A stretch of DNA of 64,000 nt from Stereum hirsutum FP-91666 SS1 (taxonomy: Eukaryota; Basidiomycota; Agaricomycetes; Russulales; Stereaceae), in the NCBI RefSeq assembly GCF_000264905.1, contig NW_006763139.1, forward strand, positions 1,280,313 to 1,344,312, given 5' to 3'. Made by a program: the position numbers and the translations under genes. Shown here in pieces: positions 1,185 to 57,930 of this stretch. The first letter of the stretch is position 1. Each line of letters begins with the position of its first letter. The notes beneath the pieces are model-generated. The model was not told the DNA's origin. It did not search any database and saw nothing but the letters and a program-made list of their open reading frames with translations.

Positions 1185-1475
1185 AAGACAGACCAAAGGA
1201 AAGATCAACGACATCGAGAGGCAAAATTGCGGGGACGGAATACATGAACACAAAGCGAAATACAGGGACAGTCCGCGTGACATAAACGAAAGATCAACGA
1301 CAGAGTCACGAAGCAGGATTGCAGGTACAAAATACATGAACAGAAAGGAAGCTACAGGCACAATCCGCGAGACGTAAACGAACGAACAACAACGTCATGA
1401 AGCAAAGCTGCAGGGACAAAATACATGAACACGAAGCGAGATACAGGCACAATCCGCGAGACATAAATGAAAGAG
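1185..1475. repeat. About 90-bp tandem repeat, 3-4 diverged copies
   Basis: A unit built around 'acataaacgaaagatcaac' and 'aatacatgaacac' recurs with a period near 90 bp (matching points near 1,281, 1,373 and 1,461). The same array is present inverted at about 56,040-56,290. Open frames in it on both strands are a by-product of the repeat period. No function is apparent. Confidence 0.75.
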
Positions 1476-1555
1476 AAAAAGAGGGAGATCAAACGGTCGA
1501 GAAACAGAGAAAGACGGGATAAAACTACTTGTAACCACAGGGATGTTGAACCGCG

Positions 1556-2300
1556 CTGGACACGAGCCGATCGCTGTAGATGGACTGAGCCAGGACATGG
1601 TTATGTAGCTAATATCACCGCCACAAAGGAAAATAGGGACCACGAGACGAAAGGCAAGGGAGCACAAATGATGCAAAGGGGACAACAAAAACAATGGTTC
1701 AAAGATGAGTGAACGTACATGGGCCACAAGTGATGCAAAGGATCACGCTGGACACTAGCCGATCGCTGTAGATGGACTATGCCAGGACATGGTCATGAAG
1801 CTCGTATCAGCACGAAGACGAGAGGTTGCGGATGAGGACGAGGAAACCGTATCAGATGCACGAGTACAGTTACATGAACCATAGGTGATGGAACCCAACA
1901 CGCTGGACACTAGCCGATCGCTGTAGATGGACTGTGCCAGGATATGGTCATGTAGCTGGTACCGATACATCGCGTCCGTAAGTTTCTGTAGAACAAAGTG
2001 TGAGGGATGCAAAACAAGGCGGAAGGAAGACGGCGTGCACGTACGAAGAACCTCACGGAGGTCAATTAAATCCATACTAGAACAGTGTGTTGATGGAAGC
2101 CAAGACGCTGGACTCGGACACTGGCCGATCGCTGTAGATGGACTGTGCCAGGATATGGTCGTGTAACTGGTGTTGATGCATAACGTCCGTAAGTTTCTGT
2201 AGAAGAGTATGTAAGGAAACGTGAAACAAGGCAGAAGAAAGAGTGCACGTACGAAGAACATCACGGAGGTTGATCAAATCCATAGAACAGTGTGTTGATG
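1556..2300 (-). repeat. Tandem copies of the gene B 3' end
   Basis: Four copies of a 150-210-bp unit lie downstream of gene B. The word CCGATCGCTGTAGATGGACT occurs near 1,567, 1,759, 1,914 and 2,125. On the minus strand each unit carries an intron-like stretch (gtacgtgcac ... ttctacag) followed by an exon-like peptide containing LQKLTD..H.HILAQSIYSDR. Two units repeat the sequence that encodes the end of gene B (INTLFYG). The array is mirrored at 55,215-55,930 downstream of the right gene B and is absent downstream of the solo relative at 35.5 kb. It may be spliced as alternative 3' exons or may be untranslated. Confidence 0.75.
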
Positions 2301-4305: not shown

Positions 4306-4742
4306 NNNNNNNNNNNNNNNNNNNNNNNNNNNNNNNNNNNNNNNNNNNNNNNNNNNNNNNNNNNNNNNNNNNNNNNNNNNNNNNNNNNNNNNNNNNNNNN
4401 NNNNNNNNNNNNNNNNNNNNNNNNNNNNNNNNNNNNNNNNNNNNNNNNNNNNNNNNNNNNNNNNNNNNNNNNNNNNNNNNNNNNNNNNNNNNNNNNNNNN
4501 NNNNNNNNNNNNNNNNNNNNNNNNNNNNNNNNNNNNNNNNNNNNNNNNNNNNNNNNNNNNNNNNNNNNNNNNNNNNNNNNNNNNNNNNNNNNNNNNNNNN
4601 NNNNNNNNNNNNNNNNNNNNNNNNNNNNNNNNNNNNNNNNNNNNNNNNNNNNNNNNNNNNNNNNNNNNNNNNNNNNNNNNNNNNNNNNNNNNNNNNNNNN
4701 NNNNNNNNNNNNNNNNNNNNNNNNNNNNNNNNNNNNNNNNNN
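4306..4742. other. Assembly gap (437 N)
   Basis: Undetermined bases. The flanks match 52,536 and 52,911 in the right-arm cassette, where the interval is 374 bp. The missing part should therefore contain repeat R1, the gene B start region and part of the promoter. Long open frames crossing the N run are artefacts of the gap. Confidence 0.98.
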
Positions 4743-5034
4743 CGCGCCGGGTGTTGTGTCTTGTTTGCTTTGGACACCATCTCACGCGTCGGTTGCGCGT
4801 CGGCTAACACCTCCCGAACTTCTTCCTTTCCCTACTTTGCAGCGACACAGGGCAATCCCAACCTCCACCACCCATATAGCCTTTCCGCTGCTTCCTACTT
4901 TCTTTCCCTCTACCACCATCCTATCCTCCCGGTGAGTATTCTCATGCTTTACCTGGTTCTTTCTGACGACGGTTCTCTAGTCTTCTCGAGACACATCAGT
5001 AACTCACCGTGAGTTGCCCTATACCGAAAGGACC
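4743..5034 (+). promoter_or_regulatory. Promoter and 5' UTR of gene A, left (shared with gene B)
   Basis: The region between the divergent genes is pyrimidine-rich near 4,820-4,930, with a TATA-like CATATAGCC at about 4,871. A likely 5' UTR intron runs from gtgagtattc at about 4,931 to ctctag at about 4,980. It is almost identical to 52,911-53,202, which in the right arm drives gene B instead. Confidence 0.55.
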
Positions 5035-8000
5035 ATGGCCCGCAAGCGAAAGAAGTCAAACCCAGATGCTGCAGACACATCGGACGGCCGCGATGGCCTT
5101 CCACTGGCAGGGCCCTCGCCTCCTGAGCCTATTCATGCTTCCGGCTCGAGCAGAACTCTCCGTCCTCGGAAGCCCTCCCGGCCAAGCTCTCATATGCCGG
5201 TATCTCTCCCTCGACAGCCTGCGCCTGTAGAAGATCGTCTCCCTGAGCCCCACGTGAAACGCGCTCGTCTCGGTGCTCACGACGCAATGCTTGTGCTCTC
5301 CTCGGAGACTGCCCAGTCGGGCTCTGTTGTAGCAGCCGAGTCTTTGACCAACCCGCAGCCCAGCGCAAGGTCTTCTCGTATTGCCACCCAAAATCTCGAT
5401 CTAGCTCGTTCTCCTGATCATGGGCTCGCTTCGGCTCGGATACAGATTGCTGGTGATAGGCTCCTGTCTACTGAGCTGGACTTCGGGTCGAATCGACCTC
5501 ACCCTGATGTTGACCATAACATACGAAGGCTCCCCATACCGGCCAATAAATTCGGAATCGTTGAAACAACACTTGAACGCCCTGCTCGCTCTCCTTCAGT
5601 AGATCCTGGCCAATCTTCTCAGCTCACCTCGAGTTCTACGCCAACGTTCCCTCCTCACGCTGTTCTGCTGAGCACCACTGCTGAAGCACCATCTACTCCC
5701 CCAAGCGTCACTCCGTGGGAAGCCTTGTCCCCTTCCCAAAAAACACAGCACGAAATTCGGTGTCAAGAGTTATTGACTGCTGCAGAACAGAGGGATGATG
5801 CCCCACTTTTGCATTGGACGCACCTTCATAATTTTTGGTCAGCTTGGGGCCTGCGTCACACCGCAAGCGAAACAGATGCAAATAGATTTTTCTCCTCGCA
5901 CCCAGAGATTGGACCATTAACAGAGGCTTTCCGGTGTGAACTGGCTGGCTCTCGATCCCCTTCCGAGTTGGCTCGATATTTCTATCAGCTCATCCATCAT
6001 GGCAAGTTCTTTAAGTTTTCTGCAATTACACCATAGTATTAAATTGAACCACAGAAGTGTGGCTGAATTCACCTGTTGTACCAACGACGCAAACCCGTTG
6101 TACGTTGGATTCCTCACTAATTTTCCAAGAGAAACTGACGCTATTTCCCTCAGCTTCTACTCCCCCACGTGAATTGGCACCTCCTCCCAAAAACAGTGAG
6201 TTATACTGTCTCTGTGCCATATGACATCGATTCTAACCTCATTCTCAGCTACGCCACAGAAAGAGGTGTACCCAGTCGTAATGAACTGGCTCAAAAATAT
6301 TTTAGAGGTTGAGTTTAAACCCTTGTTCGATTCGCTTCGTGGAGGCAACCGCATCTCCCAACGCTTTGGAGTCGACAATGGCCGTTTGACGACCCTGACC
6401 CTGGATGATTTTGACTCCCCCCCCGCAGCGCTTTCAGCGCAAGTCAAGCGTGTTGCTGTTTATCACCAGAACACGTACGTTGCCTCTGATTGAGATCATT
6501 TGACGTTTACTTACGCTACAGTGCTAGGATTCTGACTGGAAACCAGGGGCAAGGCAAGAGCCGAACTTGCACACAACATGCTGCAGAGACAGGTGGCTTC
6601 CTATTTGCCCTTTTTCACAAAGAGGAGGGCCTACGCAAAACGTTCCCCAACGGCTCCGCGGTTTACGGCTCCCAGGACCTTCAGCTAGCAATAACGGAGA
6701 TCCTGGAAAACAAGTCCAAATTCAGCGACATAGCCGAAGATCCCCAGCAAATAGAGGACAACAGGGAGGCGGTCGAACATATGGCCTTAACAGTGGCCTG
6801 TAGTCGAGTCTTCGTCTTCAATGCCTTCCTTAGGTGTAAGCCGGACGACATATCGCTGGAGGACTGGCTGCATGACTGGACCGCGTTTCAAGTGGCCTCT
6901 GTGTTGTGCAACCCGGACGATGCTGGACCTCTCGAGGACATCTTCGTGCGCGTTTCCGCACTGCTTCGAAAAGCGTCTACGGAAGTACTTCTCAGACTCA
7001 TCGATTTTTTCTGGCATCAAATTACATCGAAATGCCCAAGGTTCTTGGATTTTTTCCCTCTGTTGCTGGACGAGGCTAGCTTTGGCCTACTTCTATGGAA
7101 TCTCTCTCACTTCCGCTGTCGTGATCTCCCCGATGAACCTTGCTCAGTTCTGACAGAGATATATCTTGTCTGGATGAAGTTGGGCATCTTCACCAGCAGC
7201 GTCTTCTCTAGTCAAAGCGGCGTATCGGCGGACACCATGAGGCGCGCCCTTGAGCCTACTGCGACCCTCTCTGGCTGGAAAACAATCGAGGTTTCCATCG
7301 AAGGTGGCTTTCGCAACTCGGAGGATCACCGAGAATTCTTACGGAACAAGCTTCAAGGCTGGGCTGACGAAAACGGTATCTCGAAAAAGGCTTTCGAAAG
7401 TTTTATGACACGCGCAGTGACGTGGCTTCGTGGTCGGTATGTGCCATTCCAGTCTTCCATACCTCCTGAAAATATCACTCATAGCCGTCTCTTTCGCCTT
7501 CAGCTATGAGCTTACGGTGTGGCTCATCGAGCTCATACTGGAGACGAAGACAAGATCTCCACAACGCCTTCTCAGTCGTCTCGTCCTCTTCTGGACCAGA
7601 GGTTGGACTGCTACGGATGGTGGACATTTCGAGTCCGCTGAACCTGAGCTTGAGGATAACATCGAGCAGATTATGGAACGGGTAGTAGTGCATCGCATTG
7701 ACTGGGCTGCTTTCGATAGCTGCACCAACGGTGAGTGATGATTTAGCCTTATCCAGCGTCATGGGAATAGTACGCTGATCGGACCCGCATTTTCAGCTGT
7801 TAAACAAGCTGTCTATAACATCACCTTGCACCAAATGGTGGGCGGATTTGGAACTTCGATCACCAAAGAAATAGGCAAAATCATTGAATCTATCCTCGGA
7901 AAGCTCATCTACGATGACGGTGACGATACCGATACAGGAATCGCAAGGTTCGACGAACCGTTGGTGTCTTCTGCGGTGAGGGCCCATTGCAGGGAGGCTC

Positions 8001-8903
8001 TGCTCGACCATATGTCATCTCACTGGTCGGCATTGGACGATCCCGTCTCGAAAGGCTTCGCTTTCGAACGCCAAATCCCAATGGTCATCGTAGATGTGAT
8101 GGGGGACTTCGCACCATTGGAGGATCTTCTCGAAATTGCCGAGGACTCGAAGTTCGCACACCTAGCAAAACGTGAATTCCGTCTGGTCAGTGTTCGCATG
8201 GAGCGTGGTGAGTATGTAGCGTCGGCGGTCTCGGCGACATCGGGCCCTTGCCCCCAGCTCGCCTACCAGACAGAGACGGCCATTGATTACCTAAATTACG
8301 TCAAGACTCCCGGGGGCGCGGCAATCATCTATCCTGACAAGCTTGAAGGTCCCGACTTGCACAACGAGATACAGGATAAGAATACAGGGAAGATAGTCGA
8401 TGTCGTGACACAGGCCAAGCTCAGCGTGAGTTCCGATGGGGTGAGGAATGACGTGTGCAGAAAAGGCGTCGAGAGCCTTGAACCTAGTCGCTTCCACCAG
8501 CGATATGACAAGAAGGTGCGTGCTCATTCTATTGCTGCTCTTCGATATTTTGCACCTGCTAATCTCATATACGTCTTTCGTTTGGTTTGTATCTCAGGAG
8601 GAGGCGTGGGTTCATACGACCCAATACGGCCCGGACATTCAGAAGCAATGGAAAAATATGAGAAAGGCGCGGTACCCAGGGTATACACCACCTAAGCTGT
8701 CAAAAGCAAAAATGGCTGCTGAGCTCAGGAAGATTCCCGACATGATTCCTGTTCTTGCCATCGCGGGGGTGCCGAAGTCGAACTTTTTCAAGGAGCACAA
8801 GGATGTCGCGCTGATGAAGCTCCACCACTTCCCGCGACTCTTCGGTAAGACCTGGCCTACTGCTCTCAAGAGGAGCCGGCCTCAGCCTCCGATGCCGAGG
8901 TGA
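5035..8903 (+). CDS. Gene A, left copy: P-loop NTPase with C-terminal REase-like nuclease domain
   Basis: Eight exons: 5035-6001, 6055-6099, 6154-6195, 6249-6474, 6522-7436, 7504-7730, 7797-8515 and 8598-8903, giving 1,148 residues. The start is the ATG in good Kozak context (gaccATGG), with KRKK soon after it. Domains in order: a disordered basic N-terminus; an about 100-residue domain (residues about 225-322) shared with gene B; Walker A GNQGQGKS (about 432-439); a likely Walker B FFPLLLDEA (about 603-611); and a C-terminal region (about 985-1015) with PD...DVVTQAK, typical of the PD-(D/E/Q)xK restriction-endonuclease fold. NTPase plus REase-like nuclease is the layout described for Crinkler (CR) effector-type proteins in fungi and oomycetes; assignment to that family is inference. 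Intron 1 has a GC donor (gcaagt). Confidence 0.8.
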
Positions 8904-9745
8904 TCGTGGTCTGCTTTCATTCATTGTTGTCTTATCTATCTCGAAATGTGTTTATGTATTCGGTCCTCTGGGCCTCTTCTCGCGACCTATCCCTTGTGTA
9001 CTCGTACTCCTACATCCTATGCATTATGCCTCTGTATGTTGCTTTCCGGAAATTTCTCAATATATCACCGATATTTCTATGCTGTCTTGTCATATTAGCC
9101 GGGCGATCTAGCCGTGTGGCGACCTGTGTGCTCGATTGTCGGGAAAGGTTGCACAGCTTCTTAAACAGGGTCCGAATTAGGGCTAATATCAGGGGATGGA
9201 TAATTTCAATGCTCGACCATTGCCAGGTTCCTTGTAAGGAAGCCTGGTTAAGGTCTTTGGGAGGAGGACATCGACGAACTACTTTCCCCCAAAAGCTATT
9301 ATGTCTGGCAACTTTGTTTTGGTGGAGAGACGACACGGGAGCGCAGTATGGTTTTTCGCACAGCACATAACTGATCAAGAGCCGCGATGAACATGGACTC
9401 GGAGGTCACTTGGATTCAGTGTGTCAAGCGTAAGGCAAAGTCTGCGACAGCCATACGAACTATCGAGGGGATGGATACCTCAATGGACGAATCCCGTGCT
9501 TGACCAAGCAAAATGTCGAGCATAACGCCTCTGACGAAGAATATTCATAGCTGCGAAGCGACCGAAGAGGCTTCGTAGGCCTGAAGCGCGCGTTGTAGTG
9601 AGATAAAAGCACCACATTGATGTAAATGAATTTGCGGGAAATGGATTCGCACAGGGTAAAAAGCAACGGCAGCAGAACCAAGATATTATCTGATCCGTAT
9701 TGCGTGTGTCAACACTCCTTGTCGTGTCATGCTGACCGTCACAGT
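8833..9745. repeat. 3'-end segment of gene A, left orientation (flipped in right arm)
   Basis: This 913-bp block contains the last coding bases of gene A (FGKTWPTALKRSRPQPP), its stop, and about 840 bp of downstream DNA. In the right arm the same block (47,788-48,717) has the same absolute orientation although the surrounding arm is inverted. The left arrangement gives gene A a natural end, so it is probably the original one. Apart from the gene A tail no gene is supported; the open frames on both strands are not recognisable. Confidence 0.85.
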
Positions 9746-9878
9746 ACAGAGACCGTGGGCACGGACACGGTGAACAAATCAAACAGAGTAAGAGTACAAG
9801 AATACGTTGACTCGATAAATCTCGAAGCCACAAGAGGTGGTATACCGCGAAACAAACCGCGAAGTGAGCGGATCGAAG

Positions 9879-11313
9879 TCAAACAAGCACCTTCCTCAGC
9901 TGCCACACCCTCGCCGGCAACAGCGTGACCGGACACCTACCGCTTTTCTCGACCTCCTCATACGCGCACCTATAGCAGAACACATACCCGCTCGGCAATG
10001 CCGTGGCATTCTTGATCCCTTCCCCGCAAATTGGGCATTTGCCGTACTTCCGTCCGTCGAGTTTCAGTCCTTGTGGATGCGGTCGAAGGAGGGCGGGTGG
10101 CGGGATGGATGGACCGAGCGGAGAAGATGAGAGCGTGAGCGAGCGGGCGGGGGATGAGGGAGAATACCACCATTCGAGGAATTTGATGAAGAAGATTGTG
10201 GTGGGAAGGAGAAGCTTGAGGGAATCGAGGAGGAAGCGAGGAGAGTTGCGAAATATGTGGCGTAATGTGTCGAAGGGAGATTTCGGAGGAGTTGTGGCCG
10301 AGGATCTTTGAGCGGCGAGGGACTCCGCGCGCTATACGATAACGAAGAATAAGACCAATGATGAGACGAAGAATGTATTGGATGTAGACTTACATAGTCG
10401 TCGATGCCTAGTCGACGTAGGTCGACACCTATCCAGGATAACCACGGTCGGTAATATGGTGTCTTTTCGAACAAATATGCGACGTTGTAAATGAGAAGCC
10501 AGTGTTCGAAGCCCATGTTCAGCCATGGGTAAAGCTTCTTGTATAGTCTCCTCCATCGGCCTCGCCAGGTCTAACAGAAGCTCAACAGGTCAGTCTCTCG
10601 TTCAAAAAGCTTCAACGATTGACCTGCGACAAGTACATACCTCTTCTGTCAATGCACGAATTTGCCTTCCTCCCGCATCATCGATGAGATCTGAGTCGAT
10701 CCCTCCGCCAAGGTCCTCGAAGTAATCCTGCGCTTTGGCACGAATGTATGGCAGGCCTACCTATACATTCTTGACTGCTTCGTCGATGTCGTACCATACT
10801 GAAAGATACAGAGAGACTTACGAGTAGGAGTAGAGAGCACCATACCTCCCTTCTTCGTAGGTTCTCCTCGGGAAATATACCACCTACAGCTGCTTTAGCT
10901 CGTTCGGTCTCAAACAAAGGTCGGCGCCGGCGTTTGAGGCCATAAAAGTTCTCGGAGAAGGAGGCATCTACATTGATGTAAGTAATCACAACTCAAACAA
11001 AGAAGCTATACCAGACGAACTATGTTGCCTGAGATAATGCCGTTCCACGAACAGCATGATCAATGCGTAGAACTCTTCATGTCGATTGACTATCCGGAGT
11101 AGATATCTCGGATACCTTTGCGCAAAAACCTATCCAACAACACAAACAGTCACTTCAGCCTTATAATATAATCAAAATACAAGCAAGGCATACAGAAAGG
11201 ACATATTTGAGTGCAGGTTGGAGCAGGTCGCGTAGCTGTTCCTGAGCAATGAGCTCGAAAAGTGACGGCTTGAGGGGGTTTTCGCCCCCAACGATGTCGT
11301 TGAAAAACTCCAT
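9879..11313 (-). CDS. PEX12: Peroxin-12 (peroxisomal RING E3 component), intact copy
   Basis: Pex12 is a membrane RING protein which, with Pex2 and Pex10, ubiquitinates the import receptor Pex5 at the peroxisome. The start is [20 protein letters not shown], followed by exons with RQHSSS-like and [15 protein letters not shown] segments, then [23 protein letters not shown], and a C-terminal zinc-binding RING-like domain (CPICGEG ... GYVFCYRC ... [17 protein letters not shown]). The short Pex12 RING lacks several canonical zinc ligands, which is normal for the family. Introns are short (for example the one ending ttggatag, near 11,130-11,200). The start codon lies inside the inverted duplication, about 130 bp from its inner boundary. 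The second copy at 46,185-47,651 is broken, so this is probably the only working gene. Confidence 0.9.
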
Positions 11314-11896
11314 GTTGTGGGTCAAGGCGCTCCCGGCAAGTGGTTCAAAGCTCGAACCTGATTGAATGCGAGGATAGTCCTAGGAGTACTGAAGCAGAGA
11401 GATGGAGGAGAGTGGAGGAGGTCCCAGGTGAGAGCTGATTTCAGGTGGAAGTTCCTGGTGGCGCGCCGCGGAACCGGCACCACAACAAGTTATCACGTGA
11501 TACGGGGAAATTGTTCGTTTTGTGCCACACATGTGGCAGAATCCGCCAATGACTCCCGAGTCCCATCCATCTCGAAGACAACCACAAAACGGACTTCAAA
11601 TGAATGTTGTTTGTGTACACCTCTTGTGCCCCTAGGAGGGAAGGCTGAGGAATGAGGCTCGGGCAAAGGAATTGTGGTCGAATTGCAATTTCCGGAAGCA
11701 CTTCAAAAGCGCGCCTAACGCGACGTAATTCGAACTTCAACCGTCAACCCGTCCTCCGAGTCGTACGAATCAATAATCTTCTTCCTTTCAACCATTGCGG
11801 CCACATATACACGCCCAAAAGACACACTGCGCTTCAGTCAAACTGATCCAACCATCGAAAATTTGCACTCAACTCGCAAACCCTGGAGTAACAAGT
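11314..11896. other. Arm boundary and upstream regions of PEX12 and the next gene
   Basis: The inverted duplication ends at about 11,445. The remaining sequence up to 11,896 is single-copy and holds no convincing gene. It should contain the PEX12 promoter and that of the rightward gene starting at 11,897. Confidence 0.5.
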
Positions 11897-35512: not shown

Positions 35513-36873
35513 ATGACGTTGAAGCGACGTCGCTCTTCAAACTCAGACTCCGACCCTGCATCAGAACTCGACTCTCGCGAGGAACTACTCTCGAAAACAC
35601 CTCGTTGTGCTCGTTTTGCTAATCCACACTCACACAAAACATTCATTCGCTCGTTTTTCGATTGTTCTTGGGAAACTTTGGGGGCAAAACGCAAAACTCA
35701 GCTCAGAGAGCACTACCAAGACATCTTCAATCGAGTTTGGGACGGAGACGAAATTGCCTTTCAATGGGACACATGGGCTAACCTTTTTGGTGCTTTGGGA
35801 CTCATGGCTGTCGATATGGATCAACTCCGCGAACTCGTTGTTGGGAGACACGAGGACCTGTACGCCATCATAAATCGCGCTCACCGAACCCACAACTTTT
35901 ACGACCTCTGTCACCATCGTAGGTCACACTTTTTCCTGCCATACACGAGCGCTCTCATATATCAAGGGTTCATTTTAGGCTTATTTTTCAACGAATTAAA
36001 TGCTGGGATTGATGGTGCCCTGCTCGACTTGGGGCCCTTCTTTCAAACGATCCGTAATGGTGGGCTCCCCTCCTACCAAATCGACTGTGACGCATGGCGT
36101 ACTGCGTGTCCTTTCGGTCTCGTTTCCGTTGGGCGTCCCTCCCAGCCTTTGACGCACCGTATCAAGACTATGACATTTGAAGAAGTGCAGTAAGCATCTT
36201 TCTCCCTCTCATCCTTGGCAAGTGAAACTTATCTCTCTGAATCGCCAGCCTGATCAGAAAATGGCATCCATCACCACAGACACCAAGTCTTCTAAAGAGT
36301 CTTGCACAGAACTGGGGGTTTTACTTCGCGTTCTCTCCCAACAAAATTGCCGAGGAATCAAGAGAGTTTCATCTATCTCAAGACCTCGTTCTCGTAACCC
36401 AACAACTCAGTCGTGCAGCCGACATGGCCCATTTCGATGCAACCCCACAAGCCATCCAAACAGCAGCTCAATGTTGCTTCTACGCTCTCTATCTCACACG
36501 TATCATCGTCCTTTCCTCTTTCCTCGACTCTCTCCCTCGGAGCATGTCAGCCGAAGAAGCTCGCCAGCAGTGGGCAGTCTTCCAGTATAACCCGCCCTCG
36601 AAGGATGGCAACGACGTCTTCGCCATTGTTTATCGAGCCGTCGCGGACGGCTCCCTCGACGACATACGGCGAAGTGTGGACGCTCGTTTCAGCGCATTGT
36701 GCGCCCGGAACAAAGAATTCTTTCCACAAGATCAGGGCAAAGTACTCCCTTTCGAGATTGTCATCAACGAGACCGAAGATTTTGTCGTGCAACCTCCCGC
36801 GAGCGGACGCCAACCGGCTTGTTCTCGCTTTGGCGTCCAGACGCTCTTTTGGGGGTTCGACAGAGCTTCTTGA
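35513..36873 (+). CDS. Solo relative of gene B
   Basis: Third member of the B family, with no gene A beside it and without the N-terminal repeats. Exon 1 (35513-35918) codes MTLKRRRSSNSDSDPAS, then the shared domain (SWETLGAKRKTQLREHYQDI ... HNFYDLCHH), ending at the same His-His splice site as genes A and B. Exon 2 begins after atatcaag at about 35,969 and ends near 36,188. The last exon carries LAQNWGFYFAFSPNKIAEES, CCFYALYLTRIIVLSSFLDS and FEIVINETEDFVV, and ends FGVQTLFWGFDRAS, parallel to gene B. The stretch aligned with the possible Walker B of gene B has INET here, so that motif is not conserved. The exon 2-3 splice site is uncertain. The frame is open across the matched parts, so it is probably functional. 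Confidence 0.7.
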
Positions 36874-37303: not shown

Positions 37304-37404
37304 TGCCCCATGGCTGAGTTGGTCACAGCGTCCGACTGTTATCTGAGAGTCTCTGATAGCTTACAATGCATCGGAAGGTCGTGAGTTCAAACCTCACTGG
37401 GGCA
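37304..37404 (+). tRNA. tRNA-Asn (GTT) with 28-nt intron
   Basis: A full cloverleaf can be drawn: acceptor TGCCCCA/TGGGGCA, D stem GCTG/CAGC, anticodon stem TCCGA/TCGGA, T stem GTGAG/CTCAC with loop TTCAAAC. The loop is CTGTTAA after removing an intron at the canonical site after base 37 (37,342-37,369). The mature length is 73 nt before CCA. The anticodon GTT and the body match fungal tRNA-Asn. Confidence 0.93.
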
Positions 37405-37912
37405 GATATCCAGCCACAGGCAAGTTTTTGGTCTCGCTCCTTGTATTCTCCTTCCGGACGACGTTTCTAGCATCATTATGTATATATTGACGGACTCCCC
37501 GCCTTGGCTGTACGTGATACAATTGTTTCGCTTCATGGTGACTGTGACTGGCCTGGTGGATTATGAACATAGCTTATTCAAAAGTGGAGAAAGAGGATAA
37601 CAAAAGACTGAAACAACAACCCATAGCTTCAACGACTGGAGCAGAGAACTGAGGAGACGGATGGATATCGGATGCGGTACGCGTGCTGGCAGGGGGAGAG
37701 GTAGATGGAGCCCAGGACGATGGACGGGGTTGGGTGAACAGTGATGGGCGAGAACCGGGTGAGTGATGCGTGGCAAGGAAGTTAGGCATCGTTGGAGGAC
37801 GTGCAAGGCTGCAGTATGAGCCCTGGGTATGAAGGAAGACCAAGGTGTGATGTGAGAGTGCGACGAAACTGAGGGCAAGGTAAAAGAGAAAGATCCGGAT
37901 TGTCCGAGTGCA
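37405..37912. other. tRNA 3' flank and CNB1 3' region
   Basis: No gene supported. The tRNA is followed by TTTTTGG at about 37,424, a possible Pol III terminator. The rest is downstream of CNB1. Confidence 0.45.
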
Positions 37913-46061: not shown

Positions 46062-46184
46062 GCGATAAATCAGCTTTCACCAGGGACCTCCTCCATCTCC
46101 CTGCTGCAGTACTCCTAGGAATATCCTCGCATTTAATCAGGTTCAAGCTTTGAACGACTTGCTGGGAGCGTCTTGACCCACAGT

Positions 46185-47651
46185 ACGGAGTTTTTCAGCG
46201 ACATCGGTGGGGGCGAAAACCCCCCTCAAGCCGTCACGTTTCGAGCTCATTGCTTAGGAACAGCTACGCGACCTGCTCTAACCTGCACTCAAATATGTCC
46301 TTTCTGTATGCCTTGCTCGCATTTTGATGATATTATAATGTTGAAGTGACTGTTTATTTTGTTGGATAGGTTTTTGCGTAAAGCTATCCGAGATATCTAC
46401 TCCGGATAGTCAACCGACATGAAGAGTTCTACGCGTTGATCATGCTGTTCGTGGAACGGCATTATCTCAGGCAACATAGTTCGTCTGGTATAGCTTCTTT
46501 GTTTAAGTTGTGATTGCTCAGTGCTCACATCAATGTAGATGCCTCCTTCTCCGAGAACTTTTATGGCCTCAAACGCCGGCGCCGACCTTTGTTTGAGACC
46601 GAACGAACTAAAACAGCTGTAAGTGGGGTCTTTCCAGGGGAGAACCTACGAACAAGGGAGGTATGGCGCTCTCTACTCCTACTTGTAAGTCCCTGTGTAT
46701 CTTTCAGTATGGTGCGACATCGACGAAGCAGTCAAGAACGTGTAGGTAGGCCTGCCATACATTCGTGCCAAAGCGCAGGATTACTTCGAGGACCTTGGCG
46801 GAGGGATTGACTCAGATCTCATCGATGATGCGGGAGGACGGCAAATTCGTGCACTGATAGAAGAGGTATGTACCTATCGAAGGTCAACCACAGAACCTTC
46901 TCTGAATGAGGAACTGAGCTATTGAGCTACTGTTAGACCTGGCGAGGACGATGGAGAAGACTATACAAGAAGCTTTACCCATGGCTGAACATGGGCTTCG
47001 AACACTGGCTTCTCGTTTACAACGTCGCATATTTATTCGAAAAGACGCCATATTACCGACTGTGGTTATCCTGGATAGGCGTCGACCTCCGTCGACTCGG
47101 CATCGACGACTACGTAAGTCTACATCCAAGACATTCTTCGTCGCACTCATAGTCTTATCCTTCGCTTGACGTATAGCGCGCGGAGTCCCTCGCCGCTCAA
47201 AGGTCCTCGGCCACAACTCCTCCTCCTAAATCTCACCTCGACACTTTACGCCACATCTTTCGTAACTCTCCTCGATTCCTCCTCGATTACCTCAAGCTCC
47301 TCCTTCCCACCACAATCTTCTTCATCAAATTCCTCGAATGGTGGTATTCTCCCTCCTCCCCCGCCCGCTCCCTCATCCCCCGCCCGCTCGCTCACGCTCT
47401 CATCTTCTCCGCTCGGTCCATTCATCCCGCCACCCGCCCTCCTTCGACCGCATCCACAAGGACTGAAACTCGACGGACGAAAGTACGGCAAATGCCCAAT
47501 TTGCGGGGAAGGGATCAAGAATGCCACGGCATTGCCGAGCGGGTATGTGTTCTGCTATAGGTGCGCGTATGAGGAGGTCGAGAAAAGCGGTAGATGTCCG
47601 GTCACGCTGTTGCCGGCGAGGGTGTGGCAGCTGAGGAAGGTGCTTGTTTGA
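46185..47651 (+). pseudogene. PEX12 duplicate, inactivated
   Basis: Collinear with the intact PEX12 at 9,879-11,313. The start codon is changed to ACG (46,185-46,187), the C run in the fifteenth-codon region has six Cs instead of five (frameshift), and the CAG of LIAQEQL is TAG. The last exon still reads through the RING ([20 protein letters not shown]) and has a tandem 20-bp-scale duplication in its Pro/Ser stretch. The first exon is dead, so the copy is a recent pseudogene with little decay elsewhere. Confidence 0.9.
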
Positions 47652-47787
47652 CTTCGATCCGCTCACTTCGCGGTTTGTTTCGCGGTATACCACCTCTTGT
47701 GGCTTCGAGATTTATCGAGTCAACGTATTCTTGTACTCTTACTCTGTTTGATTTGTTCACCGTGTCCGTGCCCACGGTCTCTGTTCT

Positions 47788-48717
47788 CGCGAGTCTTCGG
47801 TAAGACCTGGCCTACTGCTCTCAAGAAGAGCCGGCCTCAGCCTCCGATGCCCAGGCTATCATGAAACTTGGTCTGCTTTCTGGTATTCATTGTTGTCTTA
47901 TCTCTCTCGAAATGTGTTTATGTATTCGGTCCTCTAGGCCTCTTCTCCCGACGTGTCCCTTATGTATTCCTTCTCCTAGATCCTATGCATTATGCCTCTG
48001 TATGTTGCTTTCCGGAAATTTCTCAATATATCACCGATATTTCTATGCTGTCTTGTCATATTAGCCGGGCGATCTAGCCGTGTGGCGACCTGTGTGCTCG
48101 ATTGTCGGGAAAGGTTGCACAGCTTCTTAAACGGGTCCGAATTAGGGCTAATATCAGGGGATGGATAATTTCAATGCTCGACCATTGCCAGGTTCCTTGT
48201 AAGGAAGCCTGGTTAAGGTCTTTGGGAGGAGGACATCGACGAACTACTTTCCCCCAAAAGCTATTATGTCTGGCAACTTTGTTTTGGTGGAGAGACGACA
48301 CGGGAGCGCAGTATGGTTTTTCGCACAGCACATAACTGATCAAGAGCCGCGATGAACATGGACTCGGAGGTCACTTGGATTCAGTGTGTCAAGCGTAAGA
48401 CAAAGTCTGCGACAGCCATACGAACTATCGAGGGGATGGATACCTCAATGGACGAGTCCCGTGCTTGACCAAGCAAAATATCGAGCATAACGCCTCTGAC
48501 GAAGAATATTCATAGCTGCGAAGCGACCGAAGAGGCTTCGTAGGCCTGAAGCGCGCGTTGTAGTGAGATAAAAGCACCACATTGATGTAAATGAATTTGC
48601 GGGAAATGCACAGGGTAAAAAGCAACGGCAGCAGAACCAAGATATTATCTGATCTGTATTGCGTGTGTCAACACTCCTCCTTGTCGTGTCATGCTGACCG
48701 TCACAGTAATGGTGGAG
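47788..48717. repeat. Flipped 3'-end segment of gene A (right arm)
   Basis: Same absolute orientation as 8,833-9,745 despite lying in the inverted arm. At its left edge cgcga..tcttcggtaag (natural gene A tail) now follows DNA that flanks the far side of the block in the left arm. At its right edge cacagta abuts the gene A body. A short filler (agaa on the minus strand) sits at the left junction. The original last about 23 codons of gene A are stranded on the opposite strand at 47,790-47,865. Confidence 0.87.
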
Positions 48718-51700
48718 CTTCATCAGCGCGACATCCTTGTGCTCCTTGAGTAAGTTCGGCTTCGGCGTCCCCGCGATGGCAAGAACAGGAATCATGTCGG
48801 GAACCTTCTTGAGCTCAGCAGCCATTTTTGCTTTTGACATCTTAGCTGGTGTATACCCTGGGCACCGTGCCTTTCTCATTTTTTTCCATTGCTTCTGAAT
48901 GTCCTGGCCGTATTGGGTCGTATGAACCCACGCCTCCTCCTGAGATACAAACCAAACGAAAGACATATACGAGGTTAGCAGATGCAAAATATCGAAGAGC
49001 AGCAATAGAATGAGTAAGCACCTTCTTGTCATATCGCTGGTGGAAGCGACTAGGTTCAAGGCTCTCGACGCCTTTTCTACACACGTCGCCCCTCACCCCA
49101 TCGGGGCTCACGCTGAGCTTGGCCTGTGTGACGAGATCAACTATCTTCCCTGTATTCTTATCCTGTATCGCGTTGTGCACGTCGGGACCTTCAAGCTTGT
49201 CAGGATAAATGATTGCTGCGCCCCCGGGAGTCTTGACGTAATTTAGGTAATCAATGGCCGTCTCTGTCTTGTAGGCGAGCTGGGGGCAAGGGCCCGATGT
49301 CGCCGAGACTGCCGACGCTACATACTTGCCAAGGTCCATGCGAACACTGACCAGACGGAATTCACGTTTTGCTAGGTGTGCGAACTTCGAGTCCTCGGCA
49401 ATTTCGAGAAGATCCTCCAATGGTGCAAAGTCCCCCAGCACATCCACGATGACCATTGGGATTTGGCGTTCGAAAGCTAAGCCTCTCGAGACGGGGTCGT
49501 CCAATGCCGACCAGTGTGATGACATATGGTCGAGCAGAGCCTGCCTGCAATGGATCCTCACCGCAGAAGACACCAACGGTTCGTCGAACCTTGCGATTCC
49601 TGTATCGGCATCGTCACCGTCATCGTAGATGAGCTTTCCTAAGATAGATTCGATAATTTTGCCTATTTCTTTGGTGACCGAAGTTCCAAATCCGCCCACC
49701 GTTTGGTGCAAGGTGATGGTATAGACAGCTTGCTTAACAGCTAGAAAATGCGGGTCCGATCAGCGTACTATTCCCATGACACTGGATAATGCTAAGGCAT
49801 CACTCACCGTCGGAGCAGCTATCGAAAGCATCCCAGTCAATGCGATGCACTACTACCCGTTCCATGATCTGCTCGACGTTATCCTCAAGCTCGGGTTCAG
49901 CGGACTCGAAATGTTCAGCATCCGTAGCAGTCCAACCTCTGGTCCAGAAGATGACGAGACGACTAAAAAGGCGATGAGGAGATCTCGTCCTCGTCTCGAG
50001 TATGAGCTCGATGAGCCACACTGTAAAGTCATAGCTGAAGGCGAAAGAAACGGCTGTGAGTGATATTTTCAGGAGGTATGGAAGACTGGAATGGCACATA
50101 CCGACCACGAAGCCAAGTCACTGCCCGTGTCAGAAAACTTTCGAAAGACTTTTTCGAGATACCGTTTTCGTCAACCCAGCCTTGAAGCTTGTTCCGTAAG
50201 AATTCCCGGTGTTCCTCCGAGTTACGAAAGCCACCTTCGATGGAAACCTCGACTGTTTTCCAGCCAAAGAGGGTCGCAGTAGGTTCGAGAGCGCGCCTCA
50301 TGGTGTCCGCCGATACGCCGCTCTGACTAGAGAAGACGCTGCTAGTGAAAATGCCCAACTTCATCCAGACAAGGAATATCTCAGTCAGAACTGAGCAAGG
50401 TTTGTCGGGGAGATCACGACAGCGGAAGTGAGAGGTGTTCCATAGAAGTAGGCCAAAGCTAGCCTCGTCCAGCAACAGAGGAAAAAATTTCAAGAACCTT
50501 GGGCATTTCGATGTAATTTGATGCCAGAAAAAACGAATGAGTCGGTGAAGTACTTCCGTAGACGCTTTTCGAAGCAGTGCGGAAACGCGCACGAAGATGT
50601 CCTTGAGGGGCCCAGCACGATCCGGGTCACATAACTCAGAGGCCACTTCAAACGCGGTCCAGTCATGCAGCCAGTCCTCCAGCGATATGTCGTCCGGCCT
50701 ACAGTCAAGAAAGGCATTGAAGACGAAGACTCGACTACAGGCTAATGTTAAGGCGATATGTTCCACCGCCTCCCTGTTGTCCTCTATTTGCTGGGGATCT
50801 TCGGCTATATCGCTAAATTTGGACTTGTTTTTCAGGATTTCCGTTATTGCTAACTGAAGGTCCTGGGAGCCGTAAATCGCGGAGCCGTTGGGGAATGTTT
50901 TGCGTAGGCCCCCCTCTTCCCGGAAAAGGGCGAATAGGAAGCCACCTGTCTCCGCAGCATGCTGTATGCAAGTTTTGCTCTTGCCTTGCCCCTGGTTTCC
51001 AGTCAGAATCCTAGCACTGTGGCGTAAGTAAACGTCAAATGATCTCAATCAGGGGCAACGTACGTGTTCTGGTGATAAACAGCAACACGCTTGACTTGCG
51101 CTGAAAGCTCTGCAGGGGGGGAGTCAAAATCATCCAGGGTCAGAGACGTCACGCGGCCATTGTCGACTCCAAAGCGTTGGGAGATGCGGTTGCCTCCACG
51201 AAGCGAATCGAACAAGGGTTTAAACTCAACCTCTAAAATGATTTTGAGCCACTTCATGACTACTGGGTACGCCTCCTTCTGTGGCGTAGCTGAGAATGAG
51301 GTTAGAATCAATGTCATACGGCAAAGAGACAGTATAACTCACTATTTTTGGCGAGAGGCACCAATTTGGATGGGGGAGTAGAAGCTGGAGGAAATAGTGT
51401 CAGTTTCACACAGCAAAGCAGCGAAGAATTTGACGTACGATAGGTTCGTGTCGGCGGTACAATAGGCCGATTCAGCCACACTTCTGCAGTTCAAATCAAT
51501 GAGAGTATCATTAAAGTGAATGTAACGAACTTGCCGTGGTGAGTGAGCTGATAGAAATATCGCGCCAACTCGGGTGGGGAGCGAGAGCCACCTAGTTCAT
51601 GCCGAAATGCATCGGTCAACTTTCCAAGATCTGGGTGCGAATGGAGAAGTTGAAGTGCGTGTCGTTCGTTTGTTGTATAGTGTAAAGCCCAAGCTGAGAA

Positions 51701-52777
51701 AAAATGGTGATAGTTTGCCCATTGCAAACGAAAGTCAGGATCTCTCGATTCTGAAGCAGTCAATAACTCTTGACACCGGGTTTCATGCTGCGTTTTTTGG
51801 GAAGGGGACAAGGCTTCCCACGGAGTGACGCTTGGGGAAGTAGATGGTGCTTCTGCAGTGGGGCCCGGCGTAACAGTGTGAGGAGGGAACATTGACGTAG
51901 AACTCGAGCGGAGCTGAGAAGATTGGCCGGGATTGGGTGAAGGAGAGCGAGCAGAATGTTCGAGCGTAGCTTCAACGAGTTCGAAATTATTGGCCGGTAT
52001 GGGGAGCCTTAGTATGTTATGGTCAACATCAGGGTGAGGTCGATTCGACCCGGAGTTCAGCTCAGTAGACAGGAGCCTATCACCGGCAATCTGTTCCCGA
52101 GTCAAAGCGAGCCCATGATCGGGAGAGTGAACTAGAGCGAGATTTTGGGTGCCAATACGTGAAGACCTTGCACTAGGCTGCAAATTAGTCAAAGATTGGG
52201 CTGCTACAACAGAGCCCGACTGGGCAGTCTCCGAGGAGAGCACAAGCAGCTTCCTGAGGTTGGGCTTCGTGGGAGGGATTGGGACTGGGACTGGATTAGG
52301 AGCTAGGATGGAAACGGTACTTGCTGCGATGCTCCTTCTGACGCGTTCTCTTGTATTCCTCAGCGAATAACGGTTCTGGCTGGTTGTCGCAGGCCTTGTC
52401 GAGGAACAAGTCTGACGTTTCGGCGGTGGGGAGGTTAGATGGCGCTGGTGATGCCGCTTTGCTTTTGGTTCAACTTCAGAAACATCAGCGTCCACAGCGG
52501 TGCGCTGACGCTTCCTGAGGTTGGGCTTCGTAGGAGGGATTGGGATTGGGACTGGATTGGGAGCTGGGATGGGAACGGTACTTGCTGCGATGGTTCTTCT
52601 GGTGCGCTCTATGGTATTCCTTAGCGAGTAACGGTTCTGGCTGGTTGTAGGCCTTGTCGAGAAACGAGTCTGACGTTTCGGCGGTGGGGATGTTAGATGG
52701 CGTTGGTGGTGACGCTTTGCTGGCGGTTCTGCTGGGATGTTGACGTCGACATTGTCGCGTCGACGTTTCCCTAACAT
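48445..52777 (-). CDS. Gene A, right copy: swapped N-terminus and new C-terminal tail
   Basis: All exons of the left gene A are present and open: the long first exon to a GC donor at 51,534, then the small exons, the NTPase exon (50,110-51,005 region, TGNQGQGKS), and the nuclease exon (48,842-49,711, with GPDVHNAIQDKNTGKI and VTQAK). The NTPase exon matches the left copy at roughly 90% of residues by eye. The N-terminus now comes from the gene B side: MLGKRRRDNVDVNIP and repeats R1 and R2, joined in frame at ...NLRK|LLVLSS. The 3' inversion replaces the natural tail after ALMKLHH with about 90 unrelated residues. An upstream in-frame ATG at 52,978 would add 67 residues, but that part looks like promoter sequence. 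Confidence 0.72.
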
Positions 52778-53451
52778 ACAGTTCTGGATCGGCCGGAGCG
52801 CATACATGGCGAGGGTATTGGATTGTGCAATCCTCAAAGGAGGTATGTCGCGGAACGCACAAGTCGCAAGTCGTGGATGAAAGGAGCGAGCGCGGCCCGG
52901 CATGGCCCGGCGCGCCGGGTGTTGTGTCTTGTTTGCTTTGGACACCATCTCACGCGTCGGTTGCGCGTCGGCTAACACCTCCCGAACTTCTTCCTTTCCC
53001 TACTTTGCAGCGACACAGGGCAATCCCAACCTCCACCACCCATATAGCCTTTCCGCTGCTTCCTACTTTCTTTCCCTCTACCACCATCCTATCCTCCCGG
53101 TGAGTATTCTCATGCTTTACCTGGTTCTTTCTGACGACGGTTCTCTAGTCTTCTCGAGACACATCAGTAACTCACCGTGAGTTGCCCTATACCGAAAGGA
53201 CCATGGCCCGCAAGCGAAAGAAGTCAAACCCAGATGCTGCAGACACATCGGACGGCCGCGATGGCCTTCCACTGGCAGGGCCCTCGCCTCCTGAGCCTAT
53301 TCATGCTTCCGGCTCGAGCAGAACTCTCCGTCCTCGGAAGCCCTCCCGGCCAAGCCCTCATATACCGGTGTCTCTCCCTCGACAGCGTGTGCCTGTAGAA
53401 GATCGTCTCCCTGAGCCCCACGTAAAGCGCGCTCGTCTCGGTGCTCACGAC
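52249..53451. repeat. Divergent promoter / N-terminal cassette, flipped in right arm
   Basis: 1,203 bp holding R2, R1, the MLGKRRRD start, the promoter, and the MARKRKKSN... first exon part. In this arm the R1/R2 side feeds gene A and the MARKRKK side feeds gene B, the reverse of the left arm. Junctions: gene A at 52,248/52,249 with no filler, gene B at 53,451 with a 4-nt filler (aaaa) before gtcagcgcacc at 53,456. Both joins keep frame (RK|LLVL and HDK|SQRT). No long inverted repeat is visible at the two ends. Confidence 0.9.
52778..53202. promoter_or_regulatory. Divergent promoter of genes A and B, right arm
   Basis: 425 bp between the two preferred start codons. It has a CT-rich stretch at 52,985-53,095, CATATAGCC at about 53,040, and a likely 5' UTR intron (gtgagtattc at about 53,100 to ctctag at about 53,148) on the plus side. 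It is nearly identical to the left-arm copy, but the side drives the other gene. Confidence 0.55.
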
Positions 53452-55214
53452 AAAAGTCAGCGCACCGCTGTGGACGCTGATGTTTCCGAAGTTGAACCCA
53501 AGGCAAAGCGGCATCACCAACGGCATCTGACCTCTCGACCGACGAAGCGCATAGCCCGTAACTCGACAAAGCCAGCTGTTCCCATCCAGACCCGTTACTC
53601 GCTCAGGATGACCCCAGATCGGATCCGTAGAAGCCTTGCAACATCGAGGCCCTCAGTTTTCGTCGAGCCCACCGCCTCTGTTCCCGTCCAACATCCAATC
53701 CCTGCTCGCAGTCCAACCCCTACCGCGGCTCTCATCCTAGCTAGCGCTCAGGCTCCACCAGCTGTCGTCTCCACGCCACCTTCTGACCCAGTCGCTGCAC
53801 GTTCAATCCTGGCCTACACACGTTCTCGCATTCAAGCACATCCAGTCCCCATCCGGATCACGCAGATTCTCAACCCTACTCCGGCTCCTATCTCAGCTCC
53901 TACTTCATCACCTAGTATCCCGATCTGTCCCTCAATACCTATCCCCTCTCGTCCTCCATTTGACATATCGATCCCGATCACAACATACGTACCCACGCAT
54001 CTCGCTTGGAATGAACTTCCCGAATCCGAGCAAGCCCGTTTGTCTGCTCAGTACGACGATACAATCAATCGAGTGTGGACGGTATACCGCCTCTTCCGTG
54101 GGGCTGGTTTCGATAACTACGCTCGAGCACTGGGGTTAGCGGCCTGTGATGTACCCGACGGTAGAGTGAAGGGGATTACGCTGAGGACATACCCAGAGCT
54201 TGCAGACATCATGATCAAATTTCGCGTAGATCACAACCTCTATGAGTTTTGTCATCATCGTGAGTGCAGCCCCCCTATCAGTACTATTCACAAGACTTAT
54301 CAAAGAATGCTAGCTGCATTCCAAAATGTGTTAGATGCACCAATCGACGAAGCCATGTCCAAAGTAGAATCCCTGTTCACCCCGTCATCAATTCTGCATC
54401 CTTCGTCTCACCGACCGCCAATCTCACTGATTCCCACCGGTTCACTCGCTATTGATTCCCTTGCGCATCCTTACTTCTGGGACCGCGATCGCGTACGGCG
54501 TAGCTTTGTGGAACGAAGGTGCGCAACGTTGACTCCTATCCATCGTCCAATCATCTCATTCACTCGTGATCATTTACAAGACCTCAGAATGATGTGGCTC
54601 CCCTTCCGCGGACTCCAGAGCTCGTGCTCGGGATCAGCGCATACTGGGGTCTATACTTCGCATATTCGCCAAACAAGACAGCAGAGGAAGCTCGTAAGAG
54701 CAAGCTTTCCCAGGATTTGATCCTGGCGATTGAAGACCTTTCTACCGTTGTGGACGCTGCGTCTCACAGCCCTGAAGCCACATCGTGCCGCGCCGCTATG
54801 GCCGAACGCTGCTTCTATGCTCTCTACTTAAGTCGCGTTGTCGTTCTCTCAAGGTTCTTGGATTGTCTCCCTCGAGATTTACATGTGCGGTACGCGCGTG
54901 CGGAATGGGCTTCATTTCAGCATAGCCCGCCATGCACTATAGAGGGCGATGACATATTCTCAGTAGTTTATCGGCACATAATGAGGGCCCAATGTTCCAC
55001 TGTCGATTTGAAGCGGACGGCTGAAGCTCGCTTTGACTCCCTGCATTGGAAGAATCAACAACACTTTGATGACGAATACGGCACCCTACCATTCTATATT
55101 GTGGTCGATGAGATTGAAGCAGCCGTTCCTCAAACCATATCGAGTGGTCGCCGTCCGGCCTGCTCTCGTCTTGGCATCAACACACTGTTCTATGGATTTG
55201 ATCAACCTCCGTGA
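53203..55214 (+). CDS. Gene B, right copy, with gene-A-type N-terminus
   Basis: The start ATG has good Kozak context (ggaccATGG). The first 83 codons (MARKRKKSNPDAADTSD... to RLGAHD) are those of the left gene A. They are followed in frame by repeat R3 (QRTAVDADVSEVEPKAKRHH), the linker, the shared domain (LAWNELPESEQARLSAQYDD ... YEFCHH) and then the B body. Exon 2 ends at 54,518 (gaacgaag|gtgcgc), and exon 3 runs from 54,581 (RPQNDVAPLPRTPELVLG) to the stop at 55,212-55,214, ending GINTLFYGFDQPP. About 630 residues, open throughout and very close to the left copy. The exon 1-2 boundary near 54,260-54,310 is not certain. Confidence 0.75.
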
Positions 55215-56480
55215 TGTTCTTCGTACGTGCACTCTTTCTTCTGCCTTGTTTCACGTTTCCTTACATACTCTTCTACAGAAACTTACGGACGTTATGCATC
55301 AACACCAGTTACACGGCCATATCCTGGCACAGTCCATCTACAGCAATCGGCCAGTGTCCGAGTCCACCGAGTCCAGCATCTTGGCTTCCATCAACACACT
55401 GTTCTATGGATTTAAATGACCTCCGTGAGGTTCTTCGTACGTGCACGCCGTCTTCCTTCCGCCTTGTTTTGCATCCCTCACACTTTGTTCTACAGAAACT
55501 TACGGACGCGATGTATCGGTACCAGCTACATGACCATATCCTGGCACAGTCCATCTACAGCGATCGGCTAGTGTCCAGCGTGCTGGTTTTCATCACCTAT
55601 GGTTCATGTACCTGTACTCGTGCATCTTATACGTTTTCCCCGTCTTCATCCGCAGCCTCTCGTTTTCGTGCTGATAACAGCTCCATGACCATGTCCTGGC
55701 ATAGTCCATCTACAGCGATCGGCTAGTGTCCAGCGTGGTCCTTTGCATTACTTGTGGTCCATGCACGTTCCCTCATCTTCGAACCGTTGTTTTTGTTGTC
55801 CCCTTTGCATCATTTGTGCTCCCTTGCCTTTGATATCGTCTCGTGGTTTCTATTTTCCTTCGTGGCGGTGATTTTAGCTACATAACCATGTCTTGGCTCA
55901 GTCCATCTACAGAGATCGGCTAGTGTCCAGCGCGGTTCAACAACCCTGCGGTTACAAGTAGTTTGATTCCGTCTTTCTCTGTTTCTCGACCGTTTGATCT
56001 CCCTCTTTTTCGCTTTCATTTATGTCTCGCGGATTGTGCCTGTATCTTGCTTCGTGTTCATGTATTTTGTTCCTGCAGCTCTGCTTCATGATGTTGTTGT
56101 TCGTTCGTTTACGTCTCGCGGATTGTGCCTGTAACTTCTTTTCTGTTCATGTATTTTGTACCCGCAATCCTGTTTCGTGATGTCGTTAATCTTTCGTTTA
56201 TGTCTCGCGGACTGTGTCTGTATCTCGCTTTGTGTTCATGTATTCCATTCCCGCGATTTTGCCTCTCGATGTCGTTGATCTTTCCTTTGGTCTGTCTTTT
56301 GTGTGCAACATGAGCAAGCACACATCGTTCGCGCGTCTTCCGACGTTCGCTGTGTTCAGATTCGTCAGAAGCTGCCACCCCGTAGCTCTTCGTTCACTCC
56401 AGGACAATAGAACGCCTCAGAATATCAACGACACTGTAATGATTGCAGGAAGGCCCAGCAACAGACGGCACTGAACTCAA
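55215..56480 (+). repeat. Gene B 3'-end tandem copies and 90-bp array (right arm)
   Basis: Mirror image of 960-2,260. Four units with CAGTCCATCTACAG at about 55,331, 55,551, 55,709 and 55,903, each preceded by intron-like gtacgtgca...ctacag in the first units. Then comes the 90-bp array (tttatgtctcgcgga...ttcatgtatt) at about 56,020-56,300. Copy number is the same in both arms. Confidence 0.75.
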
Positions 56481-57084
56481 GACAACGCAGTTGCGAGCAT
56501 TAGAGTCGTCGTAACTGACGACAGGCCTTCGATCGAGTCGCATCAGTCGAACCGAACGGACGACAGCGAGTCAAGAGCCCCCGGAGTTATTCACCCGCGA
56601 CTCTCACTTAGACTAAGTAAGTATGGTGTTCGCTCTGTTCGAGGCTCCAAGATCGCCTTCTTTCTGCTCGCCCGCTCGTAAAACGAAAACTGTGATGATA
56701 GACTGAGTACTGACGGGATGTGCGAACGTAACAGTAAGTGAATCAAGCCTCCAGGCGGAAATGCATCGTGGCACCGTCGACCTATCGTGGGGAAGGGAGG
56801 GCCAACTCGATGTGGACGTTTACCAAGAACGAATGTATTAGAAATCAAAAGCCGGGCGTCAACTGAGTACTCGGAGGTATACTTCGTGGACGGTAAAGTG
56901 AAGCAGGCACAAAGACCGATGATCATTCAAGATAGATTTTACAACGTGCAGTTAGGGGTTTTCATAGCTGAGAAAAGATTAAAAGATGTAATAGTTGAAC
57001 CCATCGCGCAGAGATCTATTCGCACCGAAAGCAAGTTGTCAGTGACACGGCAACACACAGAAGGAACGCCGCCAAAGACTCACC
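56481..57084. other. Intergenic remnant sequence in right arm
   Basis: Inverted counterpart of about 390-960, with small indels, including a palindromic acttagactaagt at about 56,606. No gene. Confidence 0.55.
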
Positions 57085-57930
57085 TCTGCATAATCAAGAG
57101 ATCGTACGAGAAATGCACGATGCGATGGTCCTCGATCTCCCATGCCACCCCGAGACACGGACCTCCAGCCACTCGTCGATCCTTGTTTTTCTCCGGGGTG
57201 CCGACACGCCCAACCCGCGCGTTTATACATATTCGAAAGGTTCATCTCCTTCCGTTTATCGACCGCCAATTCGTCTCGGAACATTCGGTCGTGCGCAGCG
57301 CGGAGGGCGTCAGCTTGACGATCTCGCCGTTGTACGCCCTCACGCCCTCGAAGAGCTCCTCGGTGGGCATTAAGGTGCAGTAGTAGTACGCGACTGGGAG
57401 GATGATCAGGACGGATTGTTTCTCCGCGACGTTGGCGGCCCGGAAGAGTTCTACCTTGTATGAGTCTGAATGGGTGTCTAAGTACGGGCTTGTAGTCCTC
57501 GAGTTTCGATGGGAAGCGGGAGGCGAGTCGGTGGATGGCATCATGGCAGATGATGTCGATCGTGTATTTGTCGGACCCGTCGAGTAGCTGTGGGGAATCG
57601 TGTAATTACGACGGGGATGACCGCACTTCGGAGAAATAAGGAAGTGTGCGTACCAGAGAGATGATCTGTATCTCGACCTCATGAGACTCGTATGTACCTG
57701 GAGGACAACAAGGGCCGACGACATGGACAAGACCCCAATCAATTCGCGCGCGAGAGAAAGCAGAGTCGACTCAGTTCTTGTTAAGCAAAGCCTTTAACAT
57801 ATACAACATCTCCGCCGACCACTCCTCCAAACGCACAACCTCACACCCTTCCACGCGCTCCTTCGTATTCGACGAAAACAACACATGATTGGGCACCTTG
57901 TGTCGCTTGGAGGGCCGTGCATTGTTATTG
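57085..57930 (-). pseudogene. BTB/POZ-type gene, broken right copy
   Basis: The minus strand shows a BTB-like start (HKVPNHVLFSSNTKERVEGC, EEWSAEMLYMLKALLNK), then a stop (TGA at about 57,775), a shifted frame with VELFRAANVAEKQSVLIILP and YCTLMPTEELFEGVRAYNGE, and the LAVDKRKEMNLSNMYKRAGW segment that matches the left-edge gene. About 190 bp coding the Cys-rich end is deleted between ctcttgatt and atgcagaggtgag. Some of the apparent breaks in the N-terminal half could be introns; the C-terminal deletion is certain by comparison. Confidence 0.65.

Follow-up and report, generated by a model that had tools for sequence, protein, structure and literature searches.

Two divergent gene pairs in long inverted arms

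The window, by which we mean the whole 64,000-nucleotide stretch of DNA analysed here (C9:1280313-1344312), belongs to the 46-Mb genome of Stereum hirsutum FP-91666 SS1, represented by a single assembly of 38 contigs. It contains two long inverted arms, whose segments share about 90-94% identity apart from two flipped blocks, and each arm carries a divergent gene pair, A and B. The pair is multi-copy in the genome; further copies or loci are referred to as L009-L018 and L020. Gene models were predicted from sequence alone, with splice sites picked by eye. The arms and their genes are as follows.

1-11441 and 46067-57278: long inverted arms
2261-4305, minus strand: left gene B, readable part, with its 5' end within a run of N
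5035-8903, plus strand: left gene A in the ancestral arrangement, 8-exon model, 1,148 aa
48445-52777, minus strand: right gene A, chimeric, 8-exon model with a GC-AG first intron, 1,303 aa, open
53203-55214, plus strand: right gene B, chimeric, 3-exon model, 631 aa, open
1510-2171, minus strand, and 55295-55970, plus strand: copies of an element of about 50 bp

The core of about 34.6 kb between the arms encodes ordinary genes (HBS1-like and TrmE/MnmE-like), together with a weak relative of the B domain at 35663-35917 (30% identity, E 2.6e-5) and a tRNA at 37304-37405 that Rfam reports and ARAGORN does not list. An open reading frame for a RING-finger protein (47118-47648) lies inside the right arm. 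The long inverted arms could allow inversion of the 34.6-kb core, an event distinct from the block flip described below.

Right gene A contains a Walker A-like motif, GNQGQGKS, and a nuclease-like C-terminal part with PD...QAK. Across 10 aligned copies of gene A, G6, G9, G11 and K12 of GxxGxGK are invariant, as are G86, E90, P179, D180, D186, Q205 and K207 downstream (G..(F/Y)E, PD, D, QxK); we take these motifs to mark a P-loop NTPase and a PD-(D/E)XK-like nuclease. In Pfam, AAA_22 matches two of the 10 copies (best E 1.5e-5) and RES weakly matches three (best E 0.0047), and no family scored above the cut-off on five pieces of the window. Profile searches of the PDB with gene A returned no relevant match, the best being designed proteins (E 0.0065 and 0.08), and despite its invariant positions the nuclease-like part has no relevant match in either Pfam or the PDB. 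Among the 7,995 best word-sharing candidates scored from a protein database, none was a homologue of residues 330-1230 of right gene A at E <= 0.001, and AlphaFold models built on two-sequence alignments were unusable (pLDDT 29.9 for the nuclease-like part, and 36.0). Stretches of B show similarity to the P-loop part of A, and vice versa, at several loci (23.8-35.1% identity, E 0.004 to 2.6e-7, composition correction off), suggesting that A and B are probably paralogues.

CR/Crinkler proteins with P-loop NTPase and REase domains have been described (PMC5289972). Gene A resembles them in its conserved GxxGxGK, its later G..(F/Y)E, PD, QxK pattern and its multi-copy state; it differs in that no CR-type Pfam family matched it.

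Downstream of gene B lies an element of about 50 bp (CCATGTCCTGGC.CAGTCCATCTACAGCGATCGGCT..TGTCCAGCG), with four copies per arm, which is found at L009-L017 as well. It has at least 39 matches in the genome; 38 copies were aligned, and 18 positions are invariant in a 34-copy alignment. The genes adjoining it are just about 65-72% alike between loci on C9 and those on C24 and C3. The element is absent from Rfam matches at gathering scores, and RNAalifold gave 11 pairs, one of them changed on both sides. In 5 of 34 copies, the hairpin following it ranks among the lowest 5% of shuffles; its median rank is 87 of 300.

Reciprocal exchange of 5' regions in the right arm

When the window is compared with itself by BLAST, the arms match in minus orientation (380-4018 with 57093-53456, and 5276-8827 with 52258-48710) on either side of a block that matches in plus orientation (4019-4305 with 52249-52535, 99.0%; 4743-5283 with 52911-53451, 98.7%). 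The opposite orientations of block and arms bear out the 1.2-kb flip in the right arm described in an earlier note on this DNA; of the limits given there, 52,249-53,451, the start stands and the true end is 53,455. The features concerned are the following.

4019-5287, plus strand: block 1 of the left arm, in the ancestral orientation, with N at 4306-4742
52249-53455, plus strand: flipped block 1 of the right arm, counterpart of 4019-5287
52249-52777, minus strand: repeat header, MLGKRRRD followed by R1 and R2, 176 aa, with which right gene A now begins
53203-53455, plus strand: MARKRKKSN header, with which right gene B now begins

The block at 52249-53455 comprises the 5' parts of the two first exons and the region separating the two divergent start codons. 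The exchange is real: in the right arm, promoter side and N-terminus have been traded reciprocally, and in frame, between A and B. The two starts given in the earlier note hold: the 1,303-aa model of right gene A starts MLGKRRRD and reads openly from NLRK into LLVLSSE, and the 631-aa model of right gene B starts MARKRKKSN and reads openly through GAHDKSQRTAVD. The start of left gene B from the repeats, also claimed there, is unreadable in the left arm itself, as is the first repeat (N at 4,306-4,742); such a start is found in L009, which is free of N and shows a MLGKRRRD-repeat start leading into B. In L010, gene B starts MSGKRRRD, and a separate inversion disrupts it. Each of the swapped headers is basic, the net charge being +8 in one (83 aa) and +28 in the other (176 aa), and each has a high content of P, S and T; by their composition they are probably disordered. 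Thus the exchange need not alter targeting, and the proposed swap of targeting along with the N-termini is not evident. A tRNA-Thr placed by ARAGORN at 52413-52489 was taken as false, since it lies inside the coding repeat and is not in Rfam at the gathering threshold.

Other copies in the genome give the polarity of the change. In L009 and L010 the alignment runs across both borders of block 1, and the order is that of the left arm. At all 10 other loci (L009-L018) the repeat header immediately precedes the B domain and shares its strand; in L010 a piece of the header is turned. These alignments show the left-arm order to be ancestral and that of the right arm to be derived. Twelve of the 17 places with a B domain were examined, and 11 of these B-bearing copies have the ancestral order, the right arm being the one flipped copy. 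Gene A was found at 11 places; in each of the 10 copies examined it adjoins B and diverges from it, from which we conclude that the pair in this arrangement is old. Two of the 12 B copies, L017 and L018, have no gene A match.

Two further inversions

When the two arms and L009-L018 (12 loci) were compared two by two, with reporting of pairs that share 700 or more aligned bases, turned segments were seen only if the right arm or L010 was a member of the pair. Among the copies on C24 and C3, no turned segment was found over 8.0-8.7 kb at 87-90% identity. The additional segments are as follows.

8830-9746, plus strand: block 2 of the left arm, in the ancestral orientation
47784-48708, plus strand: flipped block 2 of the right arm, counterpart of 8830-9746, providing a new C-terminus for right gene A
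L010 4687-5049, equivalent to C9:1203186-1203548: inversion 3, about 0.36 kb, within the repeat header

The second inversion, which the earlier note had not recorded, is a 0.9-kb flip at the 3' end of right gene A, in plus orientation relative to the left arm. L020 keeps the left-arm order through both borders of this flip and has about 0.5 kb of inserted sequence between the two, and the borders are clean if one substitution is allowed beside the gene-side border. After this flip, right gene A has a different tail in place of its final residues, and the frame is open to the stop at 48445; the C-terminal end that was lost still aligns in L010. The third inversion places stop codons in the gene B frame of L010.

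Between the arms, dN is below dS in body A (0.078 and 0.184) and in body B (0.032 and 0.096), consistent with average protein constraint except over the last 39 codons of A, where dN (0.081) exceeds dS (0.040, from only 25.5 synonymous sites). This terminal excess, together with the removal of the C-terminal end by the second flip, raises the possibility that constraint on right gene A is weakening. Within body A, 5760-6180 differs from its right-arm counterpart by 15-38% per 60 bp, around a small domain common to A and B; this stretch is possibly diversifying, or possibly converted from another copy.

All three inversions lie on C9, two of them in one copy, and no borders recur among the copies, L010 having used others. 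Flips at such varied borders, regardless of frame, argue for accidents filtered by selection. Three inversions among the C9 copies exceed what would be expected if flips were rare and independent, and the cluster may be inversion-prone. With borders read by eye and a few substitutions assumed, none of the three shows a clear gain or loss of bases at its ends, and all appear conservative.

Origin and meaning of the exchange

At the end of flipped block 1, AAAA (53,452-53,455) occupies the position of GCAA in the left arm (5,284-5,287), L009 and L010. The AAAA replaces GCAA position for position, requiring no insertion or loss, and the 4-nt filler formerly suggested can be dispensed with. On sequence grounds the simplest event would be a blunt, conservative turn of the segment equivalent to left-arm 4019-5287 plus two substitutions, in a stretch where the arms differ at about 9% of positions in any case (9 mismatches per 100 in 5188-5287). 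Arithmetically, a conservative flip between divergent coding exons leaves A in frame exactly when B is in frame. The two frame conditions of a blunt flip are therefore one, and the odds of an in-frame outcome are about 1/3 rather than the 1/9 put forward previously.

Homology at the breakpoints was sought for the two right-arm inversions, and no inverted repeats were detected (+-40 bp, ungapped). The end-to-end inverted match of inversion 1 is equalled or bettered by 261 of 343 usable random pairs, and that of inversion 2 by 164 of 500; recombination between inverted repeats at the block ends was accordingly rejected for both, their scores being no better than those of random pairs. Recombination between the long arms was rejected by reasoning as the cause of the flip, since it would turn the core and not the block relative to its flanks.

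The pattern of divergence between the arms bears on whether the block was turned or copied. Mismatches inside and outside the borders number 2/100 and 1/100 on the B side of block 1, 9/100 and 10/100 on its A side, and 7/100 and 7/99, and 1/98 and 0/100, at the borders of inversion 2; the rates are alike at all four borders (Fisher p 0.495-1.0, eight comparisons). Divergence thus runs continuously across the borders, so the block that was turned in situ is the one native to the right arm and was not pasted from the left. A left block pasted in reverse into the right arm, in the manner of mating-type cassette conversion, would account for the lack of any mismatch over the 445 bases of the core (4743-5187), against an identity of about 90% in body A. 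However, high identity crosses the left breakpoint, with 11 differences in 599 bases outside (3420-4018) against 3 in 287 inside (4019-4305), and low identity begins within the block, at 5188-5287, at a rate like that just outside. Since the steps in divergence and the borders of the block lie at different places, we rejected cassette copying, which is extremely unlikely. The highly similar stretch of about 3420-5187 spans the B-side border and stops within the block, and its identical core points to either recent homogenisation or strong constraint. Flip 1 may be younger still than a homogenisation of this core, an order that we infer.

We regard it as probable that these inversions arose sporadically, through end joining, in a cluster where the divergent pair is duplicated, and that they left a fixed exchange and not a reversible switch. 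Each flip would have arisen once, from two double-strand breaks followed by end joining with turned ends. Flip 1 would have been tolerated with both of its breaks in basic, probably disordered N-terminal tails and with the two frames arithmetically linked, and in the right-arm copy A and B would thereby have permanently traded 5' UTRs, promoter sides and headers. The same one-off inversions might have come about by template switching at replication forks instead of breakage and end joining, as small in-situ inversions within duplicated arms with undetected terminal homology (in the two right-arm cases) would allow. Template switching usually leaves duplications or deletions, however, and the conservative appearance of all three inversions makes this route unlikely.

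Could the block instead be a programmed or recurrent switch that exchanges the promoters and N-termini of A and B, as had been proposed? Both chimeric frames are open, the block is nearly identical between the arms (98.7-99.0%) and inversions recur among the C9 copies, all of which speak for a switch. Against these points stand the single flipped copy among the 12 examined, the undetected inverted repeats at the block ends, the continuous divergence, in-frame odds of about 1/3, and the different breakpoints of the other inversions, one of which breaks the gene B of its own copy with stop codons. A Pfam scan of seven other open reading frames in the window yielded no recombinase match at E <= 0.01. 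We consider a programmed switch very unlikely, and the proposal is not upheld.

An assembly artefact, in which the right arm was misjoined from left-arm sequence, deserves consideration because long inverted arms are difficult to assemble and the left-arm block contains a run of N (4306-4742). Misjoins between repeats usually fall within the repeats, whereas the breakpoints here have no detected inverted repeat; 12 of the 832 bases compared are different in the right block, which is thus not a plain copy of the left one; both right-arm junctions are free of N with open frames; and a second flip of the same kind accompanies the first, as does one in L010. Accordingly, we judge an artefact quite unlikely.

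Small end-joining inversions that create chimeric genes are a known general class. The flips in the right arm and L010 are similar in that they occurred in situ, span about 0.4-1.2 kb, show no detected terminal repeats (in the two right-arm flips tested) and create new gene junctions. Unlike the usual members of this class, flip 1 spans the shared 5' region of divergent probable paralogues, and both genes were given new heads and both remain open. Flip/flop mating-type switching in yeasts such as Ogataea polymorpha and Komagataella phaffii proceeds by recombination between flanking inverted repeats (PMC6692504, PMC5720833). It is likewise a fungal inversion that alters the promoter context of a gene, but it turns large regions between flanking inverted repeats, whereas block 1 lacks detected border repeats and is known here in one orientation. 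Reports of a promoter and N-terminus swap like the present one were absent from the best-ranked literature matches, which is not proof that none exist.

A broader reading is that the A/B loci of C9 are inversion-prone and that small conservative flips around the divergent pair repeatedly re-head and re-tail these NTPase/nuclease-like genes, perhaps aided by the encoded nuclease; we hold this to be quite unlikely. If it were true, the exchange of promoter and header at inversion-prone loci would be a recurrent source of new variants. Under the sporadic end-joining that we favour, the right arm offers a clean natural case in which a single inversion traded the promoter sides and N-termini of divergent probable paralogues and left both open. 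It also corrects a tempting statistic, as the two frames of such flips are not independent, and it illustrates that outgroup copies within one genome can help to separate a one-off event from a switch.
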